Below are positions 1 to 43,598 of a stretch of DNA of 48,904 nucleotides, piece by piece; the first letter of the stretch is position 1; every line of letters starts with the position of its first letter. The DNA lies in NCBI GenBank assembly GCA_002070605.1, contig MWDO01000021.1, forward strand, positions 1-48,904, written 5' to 3'. The notes beneath the pieces were generated by a model. That model saw only the letters and a program-made list of their open reading frames with translations. It did no database searches and was not told where the DNA came from. The translations under genes and the position numbers were made by a program. This DNA is from Spirochaetes bacterium ADurb.Bin133. GTDB lineage: Bacteria > Spirochaetota > GWE2-31-10 > MWDO01.

Positions 1-140
1 TTGGTAAGAAATTAAGGATTGATAAATTGAAAAACGACTTTTTGGATAAAATGACACAACTGTTAAATATCGCCGATCAAAAACAGCTATTATACGCGCT
101 CGTAATCGAAAATTATCCAAAATACGTCTACTATACCTAA
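1..140 (+). CDS. Element-encoded orphan protein, copy A (C-terminal fragment)
   Basis: Only the last 45 codons are inside the window, with the first full codon at position 3 and TAA at 138-140. The translation ends QLLYALVIENYPKYVYYT and matches, nearly residue for residue, the C-termini of the copies ending at 23227 (minus) and 33096 (plus). The stop lies about 15 bp before a right-hand inverted-repeat end (155-176), the arrangement seen in the other gene-bearing elements. I do not recognise the family. No catalytic motif is visible in this part. The gene is cut by the window boundary, so intactness upstream is unknown. Confidence 0.85.
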   Translation, partial: GKKLRIDKLKNDFLDKMTQLLNIADQKQLLYALVIENYPKYVYYT

Positions 141-176
141 AATTATTTTTTATTCTCCAAAAAACCGACGGATTAC
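1..176 (+). mobile_element. TIR element E1, gene-bearing, right part only
   Basis: The right terminal inverted repeat (TCCAAAAAACCGACGGATTAC, ending at 176) follows the copy A gene. The left end is outside the window, so no target duplication can be assessed. The pyrK promoter begins 21 bp beyond the element end. Confidence 0.8.
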
Positions 177-5690: not shown

Positions 5691-5879
5691 GTAATCCGTC
5701 AGTTTTTTGGGGAGACGTAACCCTCGATTTTCCCTCGATTACGCGCCGCGGGACGCGAAATCAAGGGTTTAGTTTCATGCGCCGCATATGTCAATTTTAT
5801 TCTTAACATCATATGTGTCAATTTTTTTGAGACAGACTCGCGTTATTCATTTCCTTACCCCAAAAAACTGACAGGATAC
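5691..5879. mobile_element. TIR element E2, short, with perfect 9-bp target duplication
   Basis: The left end GTAATCCGTCAG (5691-5702) and the right end CTGACAGGATAC (5868-5879) are imperfect inverted repeats, each followed inward by TTTTTTGGGG or its complement. The 9-bp CAAATAATT occurs directly outside both ends, at 5682-5690 and 5880-5888. The element has two CATATG modules (5785 and 5810) and no credible ORF. It accounts for half of the 386-bp gap between galU and the next gene. Confidence 0.9.
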
Positions 5880-6711: not shown

Positions 6712-6933
6712 GCGATTCGTCAGTTTTTTGGGGGATGGGAAATAAATTGACACATATGGATCTATATGCGGCGGCGCTCTCCCCGATAAAAAATTGACAC
6801 ATATGATACGCCGCGTCGCTTCCTGATAAAAGCGGGAATTCCCGTTTTGAATATGCTAAAACACTAAAACTCCTTTCGTACCGGGACCTTATCGAGACTC
6901 GCGCGGCGCTCCCCAAAAAACCGATAGGATTAC
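6712..6933. mobile_element. TIR element E3, short, no target duplication seen
   Basis: The left end GCGATTCGTCAG (6712-6723) and the right end CCGATAGGATTAC (6921-6933) are each bordered inward by the T6G4-type stretch. Inside are two ACACATATG modules (near 6740 and 6799) and a TATATGCGGCGGCGCTC stretch shared with E4, E6 and E7. The 9-bp flanks do not match, so one side has probably been rearranged or has decayed. It fills most of the 354-bp gap between 6638 and 6993. Confidence 0.8.
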
Positions 6934-13060: not shown

Positions 13061-13320
13061 TATATTTGTCAGTTTTTCGGAGGGAAGGAAAATTCGACGC
13101 ATATGCGTCGAATTTATTATCTGGGAACACAGCGCCGCATATAGCTCCATATGTGTCAATTTTCAGCAGGGAGCGGCGCGGCGGATATGTAGCCCATATG
13201 TGTCAAATTTTATCTGGGAGCGACGCGCCGTATATAGCTCCATATGTGTCAATTTTTTTATCGGAGAGCGGCGCGGCGTATAGCTCCATATGTGTCATTT
13301 TTTTTATTCGACGCATATGA
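13061..13320. repeat. Element E4: left TIR end plus tandem ~46-bp CATATG array
   Basis: A left-type end (TATATTTGTCAGTTTTTCGG, 13061-13080) is followed by a perfect 24-bp palindrome centred on GACGCATATGCGTC (13091-13114). Three tandem units then follow, with CATATG at 13148, 13195, 13241 and 13287, a period of 47, 46 and 46 bp. A last module is at 13314. Each unit contains CATATGTGTCAATTTT, a GC-rich GAGCGGCGCGGCG block and GCTCC, which can pair with the GGAGC of the same unit. No matching right end is found. The array runs into the 3' end of the toxin gene. Confidence 0.8.
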
Positions 13321-14978: not shown

Positions 14979-15114
14979 GTAACTCGTCGGTTTTTTGGGG
15001 ATTGACATATGTGTCAAAAATAAAAATGGACGCATATGGAGCTATATGCGCCGCGCCGTTCCTCGATAAAAATTGACACATATGCGTCCATTTTCCAAAA
15101 AACCAACGGGATGC
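14979..15114. mobile_element. TIR element E6, short, with perfect 9-bp target duplication
   Basis: The left end is GTAACTCGTCGG (14979-14990) and the right end CCAACGGGATGC (15103-15114). GATAACTAT lies immediately outside both (14970-14978 and 15115-15123). Three CATATG modules are inside, with a GC-rich block between the second and third. There is no ORF of its own. Confidence 0.92.
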
Positions 15115-20236: not shown

Positions 20237-20492
20237 GCGCCCCGTCGGTTTTTTGGGGACTCGCCGGAGCCCCATATGTGTCAAAAATAAAATCGACGCA
20301 TATGCTACGCAAGCGCTCTTTGATGAAGAATTGACACATATGGGGCTATACGCGCCGCTGTGTTTCCCGATAAAAATTTGACACATATGTGTCAAATTGT
20401 CCTGCGATATAAAATGACGCATATGCGAGGCGCGGCGCTCCTTAATGAAAAAAAATGACACATATGTCAATCCCAAAAAACTGACGAGTTAT
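20237..20492. mobile_element. TIR element E7, six CATATG modules
   Basis: The left end is GCGCCCCGTCGG (20237-20248) and the right end CTGACGAGTTAT (20481-20492). Six CATATG modules alternate between ACACATATG and ACGCATATG, some in opposite orientation, with the GC-rich CGCGCCGC block between. One module (20389-20396 area) is a near-perfect TTTGACACATATGTGTCAAA dyad. The flanking 9-mers do not match. It ends 1 bp before the stop codon of the thioesterase gene. Confidence 0.82.
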
Positions 20493-23103: not shown

Positions 23104-23189
23104 TTTAGATAACCGCTCAAAATGTATATTATTTTTCAACGTAAGTCTTTTCTATTTACATACATTTTACATTACATACGTTTTACTCC

Positions 23190-23906
23190 ATACCCCGTCG
23201 GTTTTTTGGGGAAATAAAAATTAATTTTAGGTAGAGTAGACGTATTTGGGATAATTTTCGATTACGAGCGCATATAATAGCCGTTTTCGAGCGGTTATAT
23301 TTAACAGTTGTGTCATTTTACCCAAAAAGTCGTTTTTCAATTTATCAACCTTCAATTTCTTACCAACGATCACAAGAAATTCTTCCAACCCGTATTTCAT
23401 AACGCCGTTATAGAAAAACAAGATAATATCGCGAACCGTCGAAGCCATACCGAATTCGTTATACAACGAATGCCATCTTTTTATTTGAAGATAATTCGCC
23501 TCGCTAATCCTGAGGTATTTATCCAGCCTTTTATCGTCGGAGCTATCTATAACGGCGTATTCGGAGCGGCAATTCCCGATTATTCTCTTCATTTTTGGCA
23601 TTTTTTTATTAACGAGGCGAAACATAGTTTCAAATAACTCGCTAAACGTATTAACTTTGAACTCTTTTAGTAGAAAATCTATGACAGTAGTATTCATAGA
23701 TTCTGACACGATAAAATGGAATAGATGTTTTTTGTTTTTCATAAAGTTTTCTCCTTTTTTCTTTGTATATAAATAACAACTAAAAGTAGAAAACTCTTTA
23801 CAAAAATTTGGATATTTTTTAAATAAATGACAAATAATTTACTGATAAAAAATATCTGTCTCATATGTGTCATTTTATTCCCCCGTCCCAAAAAACCGAC
23901 GGGTAA
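23190..23906. mobile_element. TIR element E8, complete gene-bearing copy
   Basis: The left end is ATACCCCGTCGG (23190-23201) and the right end CCGACGGGTAA (ending 23906), each with the inner T6G3-4 tract. The flanks TTTTACTCC (23181-23189) and GTTTACTCC (23907-23915) agree at 8 of 9 positions. Inside are one gene (23227-23742, minus), its conserved leader and one CATATG module (23862) between leader and right end. It is the only complete gene-bearing copy with a target duplication, which shows the gene travels as part of the unit. Confidence 0.9.
23227..23742 (-). CDS. Element-encoded orphan protein, copy B
   Basis: 171 aa, one of four copies. It starts MKNKKHLFHFIVSESMN, is basic and largely helical, and has a conserved centre (DKRLDKYLRISEANYLQIKRWH, then NEFGMASTVRDII). 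The tail is QLLNITARKRLLYALVIENYPKY. No DDE, HUH or serine/tyrosine recombinase motif is visible. The layout of a short strand followed by W/H-x-L-x-x-x-x-G and a helix faintly recalls Leptospira DUF1564 and ribbon-helix-helix proteins, an unproven comparison. It has a strong Shine-Dalgarno (AGGAG). Its stop lies about 25 bp inside the left TIR, and the CATATG module lies beyond its promoter. It differs from copy C at roughly one residue in ten. Confidence 0.88.
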   Translation of the reverse strand: MKNKKHLFHFIVSESMNTTVIDFLLKEFKVNTFSELFETMFRLVNKKMPKMKRIIGNCRSEYAVIDSSDDKRLDKYLRISEANYLQIKRWHSLYNEFGMASTVRDIILFFYNGVMKYGLEEFLVIVGKKLKVDKLKNDFLGKMTQLLNITARKRLLYALVIENYPKYVYST

Positions 23907-23941
23907 GTTTACTCCCAAAATTTAAATATTAATAAAAATAT

Positions 23942-29414: not shown

Positions 29415-29642
29415 AAGTCCCGCCGGTTTTTTGGAAATTGACACATATGGTAATCCGTCAGTTTTTTGTGGAATAAAAAATATCTGTTTCATATGTGTCA
29501 ATTTTATTCTTAACATCATATGCGTCGAATTTCTCCCCCTCCCCAAAAAACTGACGAGGTCCCCCCATATGTGTCAATATTTCCCACGACAAAAAATGCC
29601 CTATATGCGTCGAATTTCATATCCCAAAAAACCGACGGGTAC
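29415..29642. mobile_element. TIR element E9 (outer), split by a nested copy
   Basis: The outer ends are AAGTCCCGCCGG (29415-29426) and CCGACGGGTAC (ending 29642). A second complete element occupies 29450-29562. Removing the inner one leaves an outer element of about 115 bp with two or three CATATG-type modules. The outer flanking 9-mers do not match. It lies between the kinase-like and STAS-like genes of one operon. Confidence 0.82.
29450..29562. mobile_element. TIR element E9 (inner), nested insertion
   Basis: The left end is GTAATCCGTCAG (29450-29461) and the right end CTGACGAGGTCC (29551-29562). The immediate flanks ACACATATG and CCCCATATG agree at 7 of 9, consistent with a decayed target duplication in a CATATG module. 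Two modules 27 bp apart lie inside (29490, 29517). One element inside another is direct evidence for transposition. Confidence 0.82.
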
Positions 29643-29661
29643 ATTTTGTACAACTTTATAT

Positions 29662-32291: not shown

Positions 32292-33135
32292 TCGCCCCGT
32301 CGGTTTTTTGGGCGGGAAGAAATTCGACGCATATGGCGTTAAAATTAAAATGACACATATGATGTTGAGAATAATTTGACACATATGGAACGCATACGTT
32401 TCTAGATGAAAAAAAACGCCGCATACGCCTTAAAGCTCCGCAAAAATCTAAATCGACGCATATGTGTCAATTTTTTTAATTAGCAAAATATTTATCATTT
32501 TTTAAAATTTATCCAAATTTTTGTAAAGAGTTTTCACTTTTTAGGTGTTATATATATTAAGAAAAAAAGGAGAAAATTTTATGAAAAACAAAAAACATCT
32601 ATTTCATTTTATAATATCTGAATCTATGAATAAGAATGTCATAGATTTTCTACTAAAAGAGTTCAAAATTAATACGTTCAGCGAGTTATTTGAAACTATG
32701 TTTCGCCTTATTGATAAAAAAATCCCAAAAATGAAGAGAATAGTCGGAAATTGCCGCTCCGAATACGCCGTTATAGATAGCTCCGACGATAAAAGATTGG
32801 ATAAATACCTCAGGATCAGTGAAGCGGACTATCTTCAAATAAAAAGATGGCATTCTTTGTATAACGAATTCGGTATGGCTTCGACGGTTCGGGATATTAT
32901 ACTGTTTTTTTATAACGGCGTTATGAAATATGGATTGGAAGGATTCCTTGAGATTGTTGGGAGGAAATTAAGGAGCGATAGATTGAAAAACGACTTTTTG
33001 GATAAAATGACACAACTGTTAAATATAACCGCTCGAAAACAGCTGTTATACGCCCTCGTAATCGAAAATTATCCCAAATACGTCTACTCTACATAAAATT
33101 ACTACTATTTCCCCCAAAAAAACCCGGCGGGACGC
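32292..33135. mobile_element. TIR element E10, complete gene-bearing copy
   Basis: The left end is TCGCCCCGTCGG (32292-32303) and the right end CCCGGCGGGACGC (ending 33135). Four CATATG modules (near 32332, 32358, 32383 and 32459) lie between the left end and the promoter of the copy C gene. The flanking 9-mers do not match. The stretch 32237-32580 contains nothing but this non-coding part. Confidence 0.85.
32581..33096 (+). CDS. Element-encoded orphan protein, copy C
   Basis: 171 aa from ATG 32581 with AGGAG 9 bp before; an in-frame TTG further upstream lies in the conserved leader and is not used in copies B or D. Compared with copy B it has conservative changes (for example ISESMNKN for VSESMNTT, GRKLRSDRL for GKKLKVDKL). 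The centre KRWHSLYNEFGMASTVRDII is identical. The leader (32505-32580, with TTTGTAAAGAGTTTTC and TATATATT) is shared with copies B and D. Substitutions that leave an open frame in all copies suggest selection on the protein. Function unknown. Confidence 0.88.
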   Translation: MKNKKHLFHFIISESMNKNVIDFLLKEFKINTFSELFETMFRLIDKKIPKMKRIVGNCRSEYAVIDSSDDKRLDKYLRISEADYLQIKRWHSLYNEFGMASTVRDIILFFYNGVMKYGLEGFLEIVGRKLRSDRLKNDFLDKMTQLLNITARKQLLYALVIENYPKYVYST

Positions 33136-34865: not shown

Positions 34866-34975
34866 GTATCCTGTCAGTTTTTTGGGGAATAAAAAATATT
34901 TGTTTCATATGTGTCAATTTTTTTGAGACAGGCTCGCGTTATCCGGTTCCTTCCCCCAAAAAACCGACGGATTAC
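34866..34975. mobile_element. TIR element E11, 110 bp, with perfect 9-bp target duplication
   Basis: The left end is GTATCCTGTCAG (34866-34877) and the right end CCGACGGATTAC (34964-34975). GTAGTTTTA is duplicated at 34857-34865 and 34976-34984. The right duplication contains the stop codon of the lptD-like gene (34982-34984), and the left begins directly after the ATPase stop. There is one CATATG module. The interior is a near copy of part of E2 and, in reverse, of E12. Confidence 0.93.
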
Positions 34976-39430: not shown

Positions 39431-39541
39431 GTAATCCGTCAGTTTTTTGGGGTAAGGAAATAGATAACGCGAGTCTGTCTCAAAAAAATTCGACGCATAT
39501 GGAACAAATATTTTTTATTCCCCAAAAAACTGACGGGACGC
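39431..39541. mobile_element. TIR element E12, 111 bp, with perfect 9-bp target duplication
   Basis: The left end is GTAATCCGTCAG (39431-39442) and the right end CTGACGGGACGC (39530-39541). TTTAATTTA is duplicated at 39422-39430 and 39542-39550. It has one CATATG module. Much of the interior is the reverse complement of E11 (GATAACGCGAGTCTGTCTC). It stands between the divergent lptD-like and clostripain-like genes in a 319-bp gap. Confidence 0.93.
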
Positions 39542-39653: not shown

Positions 39654-41210
39654 ATGAAAAGACGAAACCAGCCGGTTTTTTGGAGAGGAGAAATTGACAC
39701 ATATGGGACAAATAAAATGACGCATATGGGACAGATATTTTTAATCAATAAACTATTTGTTATCCTCCAAAAAACCGTCGGGGTACTGAAAAGATTCTAT
39801 TTATTATTGGCAATGTTATTTACCCTCGGATGCTCGCAAATTCCCGTCGTTATCGACTATACTTCTAAATATTGGACGGTAATGGTTTACGCCGCGGCGG
39901 ACTGCGATCTTGAATCCAACTTGTTGATCGACGTCGAGGAGTTGAAAAGAGGAACTAACAATAACGTCAATATCGTCGTATTGATAGACAGGAGCGAAAA
40001 GTACTCCGACGACGCTTCGGTCTTTGGAGAAAATTTTTCGGATACGCGTCTTTATCTGATAATTTCAAAGAGAGCGATTCGTCTCGATGGAAAAGAAGAA
40101 TTCCCGGAAATTACAAGAAACTCAAACTACGAAGCCAATATGGGCGATCCTATTACGTTAAAGAAATTTATAAATTATTGCAAAAAACAGTTCCCCGCCG
40201 ATAACTACGCTCTCGTTATGGGGGGGCACGGCGACGGCGCGAGAAGCCGTTCTACTACGGACGTCTCCAGAGCAATATCGATCGACGAAAACGCCGACGG
40301 TTATGGAAACTCCGACCTTTTATTTATAGGAGAGATAACGGATCATCTTACAAATAAGGAGAGCGTAAACTTGTTAGTTTTGGACGCGTGCTTGATGGGA
40401 ACTATCGAAGTCGCTTATCAATTCAGACCGAATATTAATAAATTCGGAGCGGAATTCCTAGTCGCGTCTCCTCCAAAAATGTGGGGTCCCGGACTAAAAT
40501 ACGACGCTATTTTTTCAAGAATCTCCGAATCGGCTAAAGCCGGTTATTATAGCTCGCAATCGCTTACTCCGCTTGATTTCGGAACTATTATTATCGAAGA
40601 GCAGGCAAAAATTTTTGAAAAGCATTCCAAATACGATTCGGCTCTGTCGCTGTTTGATCTGTCAAAATCCGTAGCGGTAAAAGAGTCGATCGACGATTTA
40701 TCAAAGTCGTTATATTTGTATAAAAATGAATTGGAAAAGATACGGGGAGCATATTACAAATCAGATTTGATACATTATTTTGATTTATATTATTCAAGCG
40801 AATGGCTGGATTGGCCTTATTTCGATCTCTACGACTTATGCTCCAAGATCGCCGAATATCCGGCTTTTCCTGAAAATGTTAAGCGCAAAGCGCTCGACGC
40901 GATGTTAGACATAGACGAGTTTGTCGTCGCCTCGTACGCCGGCGCTTATTACTCCGGTTTTGTTGGCGGCAAAAACGGCGTTTCGATATTTTTCCCGAAC
41001 GGAGCTTTAAACTGGAAGGAACAATACTGGTATAACGCTATCCGTACGCAAGGCGTATTTGGCGGCGGAGAGCATTACGGGGCTCTGGATTGGTGCGCCG
41101 ACGGAGCCGCCGCGGGAAATAATACCGTAGAAAACTGGTTTGAACTTCTGGATAGTTTTTTCGACGAAACAAACGACTCGTCCGGAGGGGTAAACGGCTA
41201 TCAATACTAG
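39654..41210 (+). CDS. Clostripain-family (C11) cysteine peptidase lipoprotein, N-terminus interrupted in frame by E13
   Basis: 518 aa as read from the original ATG at 39654. The peptidase part starts at about 60 with a lipobox (LFTLGC, Cys60), then WTVMVYAAADCDLE, VMGGHGDG (catalytic His192) and LVLDACLMG (catalytic Cys246), the clostripain dyad. The first ATG-AAA-AGA and the CTG-AAA-AGA at 39786 are the two copies of a target duplication around element E13. Without the element the protein would begin MKRFYLLLAMLFTLGC, a normal lipoprotein signal. The insertion adds 44 codons without a stop; ATGs inside the element (39717, 39726) could serve as starts. Whether secretion still works is unknown. 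Confidence 0.85.
   Translation: MKRRNQPVFWRGEIDTYGTNKMTHMGQIFLINKLFVILQKTVGVLKRFYLLLAMLFTLGCSQIPVVIDYTSKYWTVMVYAAADCDLESNLLIDVEELKRGTNNNVNIVVLIDRSEKYSDDASVFGENFSDTRLYLIISKRAIRLDGKEEFPEITRNSNYEANMGDPITLKKFINYCKKQFPADNYALVMGGHGDGARSRSTTDVSRAISIDENADGYGNSDLLFIGEITDHLTNKESVNLLVLDACLMGTIEVAYQFRPNINKFGAEFLVASPPKMWGPGLKYDAIFSRISESAKAGYYSSQSLTPLDFGTIIIEEQAKIFEKHSKYDSALSLFDLSKSVAVKESIDDLSKSLYLYKNELEKIRGAYYKSDLIHYFDLYYSSEWLDWPYFDLYDLCSKIAEYPAFPENVKRKALDAMLDIDEFVVASYAGAYYSGFVGGKNGVSIFFPNGALNWKEQYWYNAIRTQGVFGGGEHYGALDWCADGAAAGNNTVENWFELLDSFFDETNDSSGGVNGYQY
39664..39786. mobile_element. TIR element E13, inserted in frame in the clostripain gene
   Basis: The left end is GAAACCAGCCGG (39664-39675) and the right end CCGTCGGGGTAC (39775-39786). 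The flanks TGAAAAGAC (39655-39663) and TGAAAAGAT (39787-39795) agree at 8 of 9. Two CATATG modules. The stretch ACAGATATTTTTAATCA and the following AT-rich bases match the leader side of gene-bearing E8, so E13 looks like an internal-deletion derivative of it. The added length (132 bp) is a multiple of three. Confidence 0.9.
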
Positions 41211-41875: not shown

Positions 41876-41920
41876 CGTAGAAAGAAACGGTAAGAGAGCG
41901 GCTCGGTCTTGAAGAAAAAT

Positions 41921-42181
41921 TTTGACGCATATGCGTCGTTGGTTATTATATGCCGCGACAATTGTCGTAAAATCCTACGACGCATATGTGTCAAATTTCT
42001 TATCGAGGAGCGCTGCGCTGCATATGTGTCAATTTTTATGCGACAATTGTCGCGCGTTATCGACGCGTCTCATATGTGTCAAATTTCTCTTTAACATCAT
42101 ATGTGTCATTTTATTTCTTTACCTTTTTGTGTTTTAACGCATATGTGTCAATTTTATTCTTAACATCATATGCGTCGTTCT
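41921..42181. repeat. CATATG module array E16 without TIRs
   Basis: Seven CATATG modules lie at 41928, 41983, 42021, 42071, 42098, 42140 and 42167. Two pairs have the 27-bp spacing also seen in E4 and E9. The first is a perfect GACGCATATGCGTC dyad. A second palindrome, CGACAATTGTCG, occurs at 41956-41967 and 42041-42052. No inverted-repeat end is found on either side. It fills almost all of the 311-bp gap between the GyrI-like gene and the amylase gene. Confidence 0.8.
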
Positions 42182-43515: not shown

Positions 43516-43565
43516 ATAAACCTCCAAATTTACGTATACATACCGTTAGGTATATAAAGTCAAGA

Positions 43566-43598
43566 ATATTTTTATTCCCCAAAAAACTGAAGGGATAC
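43566..43598. mobile_element. Solo right end of a TIR element (E14)
   Basis: ATTCCCCAAAAAACTGA followed by AGGGATAC is a right-type end with the preceding TATTTTTATT shared with E12. No left end or CATATG module accompanies it, so it is a truncated remnant between the amylase gene and rlmB. Confidence 0.65.

Follow-up and report, generated by a model that had tools for sequence, protein, structure and literature searches.

The locus studied here raises the question of what kind of mobile element has inverted ends of about 20 bp, flanking 9-bp target duplications and, between them, a single gene for a 171-amino-acid protein with no recognisable transposase motif. The 48,904-nucleotide stretch of DNA that was analysed (the window) is contig C21 of a draft genome (2.99 Mb, 103 contigs) from a bacterium of the spirochaete phylum; outside the window, the sequence read consisted of stretches around element copies. 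The comparison genome, G001, belongs to the same genus and aligns to the window at 81-89% DNA identity. We conclude that the genome holds more than 200 small mobile elements. Dozens of them hold an intact gene for a predicted DNA-binding protein in place of a transposase, and the remaining ones carry little beyond apparent binding sites of that protein; a predicted regulator and its putative sites thus appear to have been dispersed together across the genome.

The element ends occur far more often than chance allows. The window contains 23 copies of the 17-bp core CCGTCRGTTTTTTGGGG when up to three mismatches are allowed (0.21 expected from shuffles), and the whole genome contains 450 at up to two (219 forward, 231 reverse); the reversed control has no genome-wide occurrence at up to two mismatches. 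The flanks of 77 terminal inverted repeat (TIR) pairs, from the window and sampled stretches, match at 9 positions lying exactly 5 bp outside the core, with a perfect 9-bp repeat at that offset in 15 of the 77 pairs and in none at the other offsets tested. Therefore, the true element end is GTAAYCCGTCRGTTTTTTGGGG (22 bp) and the target duplication of the family is 9 bp, much as the preliminary description had proposed. It had also put the agreement of the flanks of the element at the center of this study, E8, at 8 of 9 positions; the eight stand, as TTTACTCC is repeated 8/8 directly outside the ends, and the ninth base has been lost or changed. Besides E8, inverted core pairs bound ten further segments of the window, of which one is nested and only one carries the gene; solo cores and cores at contig ends add further insertions, which makes the earlier count of at least a dozen other insertions a fair one (Table 1). 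In a scan of 393 genomes from the phylum, this genome has 128 occurrences of the 22-bp end, G001 has 4, one isolated match lies elsewhere, and the rest have none. The exact 17-mer is also present in seven viral contigs as a single copy in each, which a rough estimate attributes to chance.

Table 1. Coordinates of E8 and of the related features in the window (TSD, target-site duplication).
Feature	Position	Strand	Details
E8, whole element	outer ends 23190-23907		708 bp core to core
E8 left TSD TTTACTCC	23182..23189	.	8/8; 9-bp rule from 77 TIR pairs
E8 end distal to gene start, ATACC + CCGTCGGTTTTTTGGGG	23190..23211	+	0 core mismatches; core 23195-23211
E8 gene P0001, 171 aa, predicted tandem ribbon-helix-helix	23227..23742	-	ATG ORF
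Promoter-like region (TTATATATA + spacer) 5' of gene	23743..23790	-	per-column conservation, 51 copies
One GACACATATG module 5' of ATG, putative operator	23862..23871	-	
E8 end upstream of gene, CTTAC + CCGTCGGTTTTTTGGGA	23886..23907	-	1 core mismatch; core 23886-23902
E8 right TSD TTTACTCC	23908..23915	.	
Gene copy 3' end and right terminal repeat	1..176	+	cut by contig end
Gene-less element	5691..5879	.	2 CATATG; perfect 9-bp TSD CAAATAATT
Gene-less element	6712..6932	.	2 CATATG; TSD no longer present
CATATG/GC-rich module array	13066..13319	.	one degraded terminal repeat
Gene-less element	14979..15114	.	3 CATATG; perfect TSD
Gene-less element	20237..20492	.	6 CATATG
Gene-less element	29415..29643	.	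second element 29450-29562 nested in one CATATG module; absent from G001
Second complete gene-bearing element	32292..33135	+	four CATATG modules; gene 32581-33096
Gene-less element, 110 bp	34866..34975	.	perfect TSD GTAGTTTTA; exact empty site in G001
Gene-less element, 111 bp	39431..39541	.	perfect TSD TTTAATTTA; exact empty site in G001
Gene-less element, 123 bp	39664..39786	.	inside start of ORF 39654-41210; exact empty site in G001
CATATG module array	41917..42176	.	no recognisable terminal repeat pair
Gene-bearing element cut by contig end	48320..48904	+	gene from 48554

Empty alleles, for which the preliminary description had asked, were found in G001. They are exact for three gene-less elements of the window, where the difference in length equals the element plus 9 bp: 125 bp versus 6 bp at 34866-34975 (a difference of 119, or 110+9), 120 bp at 39431-39541 (111+9), and 132 bp at 39664-39786 (123+9). 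At the last site, G001 reads AATATATGAAAAGACGTTATTTATT, and here the element lies between copies of TGAAAAGAC/T. E8 is absent from G001 as well (750 bp versus 28 bp, with about 25 bp around the insertion point diverged), the double element 29415-29643 is also missing there, and the right side of 32292-33135 is not alignable. With ends and target duplication far above chance and no counterpart in G001, E8 is a real insertion.

The gene of E8, P0001, is preceded by the ribosome-binding site AAGGAG just 5' of its ATG. It has 83 matches in its own genome, of which about 55 are near full length, 83-92% identical and free of stops, and a few are decayed or truncated fragments. Outside this genome, homologues were found in two Spirochaetes metagenome bins; G001 has one copy at 82% identity and about ten at 37-46%, and more remote homologues, likewise dispersed, occur in other members of the order. 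One genome from another family of the order (G005) has a dispersed set of its own, about 13 copies with several closely related, and this set (L014, L017, L019, L080) is without these ends and without CATATG modules. Searches for family membership gave nothing convincing in Pfam (E 1), in PHROGs (E 5), in NCBIfam with alignment A2 (best E 0.1), or in the PDB by sequence; Pfam RHH_1/RHH_3 reached an E-value of 0.04 only, in one member. The searches made for an origin in a phage, plasmid, or viral contig returned no protein or DNA match. Leptospira DUF1564 was considered as a possible relative, and a literature search on it found no paper.

The predicted structure is more informative. AlphaFold2, run on 28 aligned homologues (mean pLDDT 78), gives the tandem beta-alpha-alpha units of a ribbon-helix-helix (RHH) protein, with a strand at 5-13 and helices at 14-28 and 33-45, followed by a strand at 72-80, helices at 81-93 and 99-117, and then a helical tail. 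A 24%-identical homologue from another family has the same predicted order at lower confidence (pLDDT 65). In Foldseek searches against the PDB, F-plasmid relaxosome chains came first (probability up to 0.96, E-values about 0.2-1) and viral RHH proteins reached probability 1.0, with E-values that are weak overall (best 0.009). The F-plasmid protein TraY has the RHH dimer fold within one polypeptide (PMC12117103), and these two RHH units in one chain are the best PDB fold match to P0001. However, P0001 has no detectable sequence similarity to TraY, is about 50 residues longer, has a helical C-terminus, and lacks a conjugation context. Consistently across methods, the 171-amino-acid protein is predicted to be a single-chain tandem RHH DNA-binding protein, and the prediction, which contains no catalytic domain, indicates that it is not a transposase.

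Among the most characteristic features of the family is the CATATG module. The window has 60 occurrences of the motif GACRCATATG at up to one mismatch, against 2.65 expected. At least one CATATG is present in 59/59 gene-less TIR pairs from the window and sampled stretches (1.8 expected), and in 49 of the 51 close gene copies the 350 bp upstream contain one, for the most part between -120 and -135, in keeping with the earlier view that the modules are part of the element. The homologues at 35-46% identity, which come from G001 and this genome and have no recognisable terminal repeat pair around the gene, carry CATATG 113-190 bp upstream of the start in 13 of 14 cases, nearly always as GACRCATATG or one base off; homologues in other genera have no such module upstream. 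Because the homologues without ends carry it, the module looks as though it belongs to the gene and is older than the link of the gene with the ends, and it is best read as a putative operator of the gene's own protein. In gene-less pairs, the commonest distance of the first CATATG is 35 bp inward from the core, or 40 bp from the outer end. We considered this spacing as proof of function, and the case was weakened when the eleven elements of about 100 bp turned out to be one related family. CATATG does not vary among these elements, a property that it shares with other six-base windows (it is one of the top 7 of 60), and they could owe the spacing to descent from a single deletion derivative. 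Two TIR pairs of G001 hold no CATATG, indicating that past movement of the ends did not strictly depend on the module. Elements of G001 with these ends and no CATATG lie at L085 1226-1336 and L090 1496-1591, and may be nearer to the element that first carried the ends.

Based on their anatomy, the gene-bearing elements are formally mobile insertion cassettes, with terminal inverted repeats, a target-site duplication, and a passenger gene in place of a transposase. The other elements are MITEs, represented by 59 gene-less elements of 60-336 bp that are short, multi-copy, and without a coding gene and that have TIRs and target duplications. Neither form is an insertion sequence, as the predicted RHH gene is the only one between the ends in the copies read, and the preliminary description was right to see no transposase there. 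The ends of IS231 and the IS4 family resemble the present ones loosely (..ATnCCcrTCAg..) and have a target duplication of similar size, but PF01609, which covers IS4-type transposases, matches nothing in this genome. Nor do PF03050 and PF03400 match anything in this draft genome, which thus yielded no transposase of the IS4/IS231 (DDE_Tnp_1), IS66 (DDE_Tnp_IS66), or IS1 (DDE_Tnp_IS1) type. PF00872 detected two decayed fragments with none of these ends nearby; the two decayed IS256-type transposase fragments of this genome, at L176 1411-1695 and L175 1501-1629, are unlinked to the ends. With these four Pfam models, no transposase with these ends was found in the draft assembly, and no known insertion sequence emerged as their owner, so that this refuting outcome, raised beforehand, did not occur.

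Gene-bearing copies have degraded ends and a perfect target duplication in 0 of 18 cases, and the short gene-less elements of about 100 bp have the freshest ends and duplications. Thus, the gene-bearing form is older, and the latest movement was that of gene-less derivatives, probably in trans. What had been described as a unit is indeed mobile and gene-bearing; the picture of a clean single-gene insertion sequence does not fit these degraded ends and fresh gene-less insertions. The architecture of TIRs plus a 9-bp duplication suggests that a DDE transposase moves the elements in trans, and this enzyme may be extinct, encoded in the unassembled part of the genome, or a member of a family beyond the four modelled. 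We consider it probable that the family is of the non-autonomous mobile-insertion-cassette/MITE kind, consisting of a regulator, its operator, and their derivatives, all moved in trans.

The family overlaps only partially with systems described previously. REP/RAYT systems are high-copy small repeats dispersed by a genome-encoded protein, REPs being short hairpins that are moved by a Y1 HUH protein and make no target duplications. In contrast, the present elements have long TIRs, 9-bp duplications, and no HUH protein within the element, and the duplications argue against membership in that group. Mobile insertion cassettes have inverted repeats, a target duplication, and a passenger gene but no transposase, and are moved in trans (PMC3913671). 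These features are common to MIC231 of Bacillus cereus and mic-qnrD. Whereas known cassettes carry an enzyme or resistance gene, the cargo here is a predicted DNA-binding regulator plus a presumed operator in about 55-80 copies, with numerous operator-only derivatives and no donor insertion sequence found. The Correia/NEMIS elements of Neisseria (about 100-150 bp, with TIRs and no transposase) are like the gene-less elements, and some of them hold a binding site for IHF and are able to affect nearby genes (PMC10969869, PMC2229807). However, Correia elements are bound by a protein encoded elsewhere, whereas the gene-bearing members of this family probably encode their own. The joint cargo of a putative DNA-binding regulator and its presumed operator is therefore unlike the described cases, as are the many operator-only derivatives, the copy number, and the combination of constraint with exchange among copies.

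The gene copies appear to be under selective pressure. For 52 copies, the median pairwise dS is 0.47, with values spread narrowly around it and no close pairs, and dN/dS is 0.12. Orthologues shared by this genome and G001 (one badly aligned gene left out) have a dS of about 0.55-0.82 and a dN/dS of roughly 0.03-0.12; the average divergence between copies is thus below that between the two species. All of the 51 copies tested are constrained (dN/dS 0.12-0.15), each individually below neutrality (51/51), and show no nonsense changes where 8.6 were expected from private synonymous changes; this set was chosen as near-full-length copies, and a few truncated fragments exist besides. Singletons (33 synonymous, 56 non-synonymous) give a ratio of 0.41, compared with 0.15 overall, where most variants are shared, a pattern of mildly deleterious changes being purged.

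How these variants are distributed bears on the history of the copies. At one extreme, four-fold sites are the same in all 51 copies; at the other, two bases are present at near 50:50. Linkage between codons (r2) falls from 0.112 at 1-6 bp to 0.034 at 7-12 bp and 0.02 beyond 50 bp, and thus reaches the background (null 0.020, null maximum 0.028) within about 10 bp. Since variants are common to copies without linkage beyond about 10 bp, sequence exchange between dispersed copies is the best account of what the alignments suggest. Read-scale assembly chimerism is disfavoured, as it would have left longer blocks, and neither clonal descent nor recurrent mutation alone would easily be the source of such a mosaic. 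It is improbable, in our view, that the mosaic arose by independent recurrent mutation on a star-like tree after a single burst: the narrow dS distribution without close pairs and the missing long-range linkage fit that history too, but it does not sit well with the local linkage at 1-6 bp (r2 0.11 versus a null maximum of 0.028), with two-base codon haplotypes that persist with few intermediates (e.g., AAA 27 / GAG 20), or with transversion sites split 25/25 that stand beside four-fold sites invariant in all 51 copies. If copies exchange sequence, pairwise dS is no clock for a burst, and the reading of 0.47 as the date of one ancient burst was withdrawn, as the variants are shared and unlinked.

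We propose the following mechanism. The cargo gene would encode a single-chain tandem RHH DNA-binding protein, and co-conservation suggests that its binding sites are the GACRCATATG modules that precede the promoter of the gene; a gene-bearing element would then be a regulator with its operator, autoregulated, and the gene-less elements would be derivatives that keep ends and operators. A DDE-type transposase not seen in this assembly would move all of them in trans, while gene conversion exchanges sequence between copies and purifying selection keeps them functional, such that the family would work as a single regulator maintained as a population of copies, with its binding sites scattered in the hundreds. 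Least certain is the step in which the protein, bound near an element end, modulates transposition in the manner of IHF, which Tn10 uses to fold its end (PMC2705183); we infer this role by analogy only. Tentatively, then, the DNA-binding protein of the element may act on operator arrays within it, both regulating or helping transposition and seeding the chromosome with a regulator and hundreds of its sites, the approximately 55-80 gene copies forming one freely recombining population in a single genome.

Three other views of the protein have to be weighed against this mechanism. It could be an obligate transposition factor, an element-encoded counterpart of IHF that serves a transposase encoded elsewhere, with gene-plus-operator copies selected since the protein acts near its own ends. 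The presence of CATATG in 59/59 TIR-only elements, with the first one most often 35 bp from the core, points this way, as do the architectural parallel to the part that IHF plays in the Tn10 transpososome (PMC2705183), the IHF sites of Correia elements (PMC2229807), and the predicted likeness to TraY, an accessory factor of a DNA-processing complex. However, the right end of gene-bearing elements has no CATATG nearby, the 35-bp spacing may be inherited, G001 has TIR pairs without CATATG, and the existence of homologues without ends implies that the ancestral job was not transposition. We therefore regard this view as possible but rather doubtful. A similar, minor chance is given to a host-level regulon, in which the protein is a regulator of the genus, host selection keeps copies and operators, and transposition is only the means of spread. 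Here, purifying selection near that of ordinary orthologues (0.12 for the copies, roughly 0.03-0.12 for the orthologues) is as expected, gene copies with degraded ends stay intact while their TIRs decay, and the homologous family is multi-copy in other genera too, without TIRs; yet more than 50 copies of one regulator are hard to explain by host selection, and gene conversion can keep copies intact as well.

It is very unlikely that the 171-amino-acid protein is itself a new kind of transposase, even though it is the product of the sole gene carried by the elements and independent dispersed sets of homologues exist in other genera. In the prediction, two RHH units are accompanied by helices and there is no nuclease fold, the invariant residues (M, H, F, Y, K, H, R, G, G) include no conserved acidic triad, and homologues lack terminal repeats. 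On the same grounds, the proposal in the preliminary description that it is the mobility protein of a new insertion sequence family was not sustained: the protein is predicted to be a tandem RHH without a catalytic domain, and its homologues occur without the ends.

Passenger genes of cassettes are usually viewed as cargo without special selection. Here, dozens of regulator copies are intact and apparently still exchange sequence, and the putative binding site travels both with the gene and alone. If the protein binds CATATG as we infer, this would be a natural bacterial transposon that spreads a transcription factor together with the sites of its regulon. If true, the rise of a new regulon by transposition and the coherence of a high-copy dispersed bacterial gene family would become testable questions; GACACATATG and GACGCATATGCGTC are candidate modules for binding by the predicted protein.

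Some insertions in the window have further features. In the larger arrays, GC-rich units of 46-47 bp (GGCGCGGCG and similar) alternate with CATATG modules (13117-13302, 15025-15085, and 20329-20389). The element at 39664-39786 lies just past the start codon of a clostripain-like gene (39654-41210). The insertion of 132 bp (44 codons) leaves the reading frame open and extends the N-terminus ahead of a lipoprotein-like signal peptide. At 43557-43596, there is a solo element end where G001 (L192 2157-2854) has about 700 bp that, by eye, look like a TetR-type regulator gene, and the element may have caused a deletion at this site.
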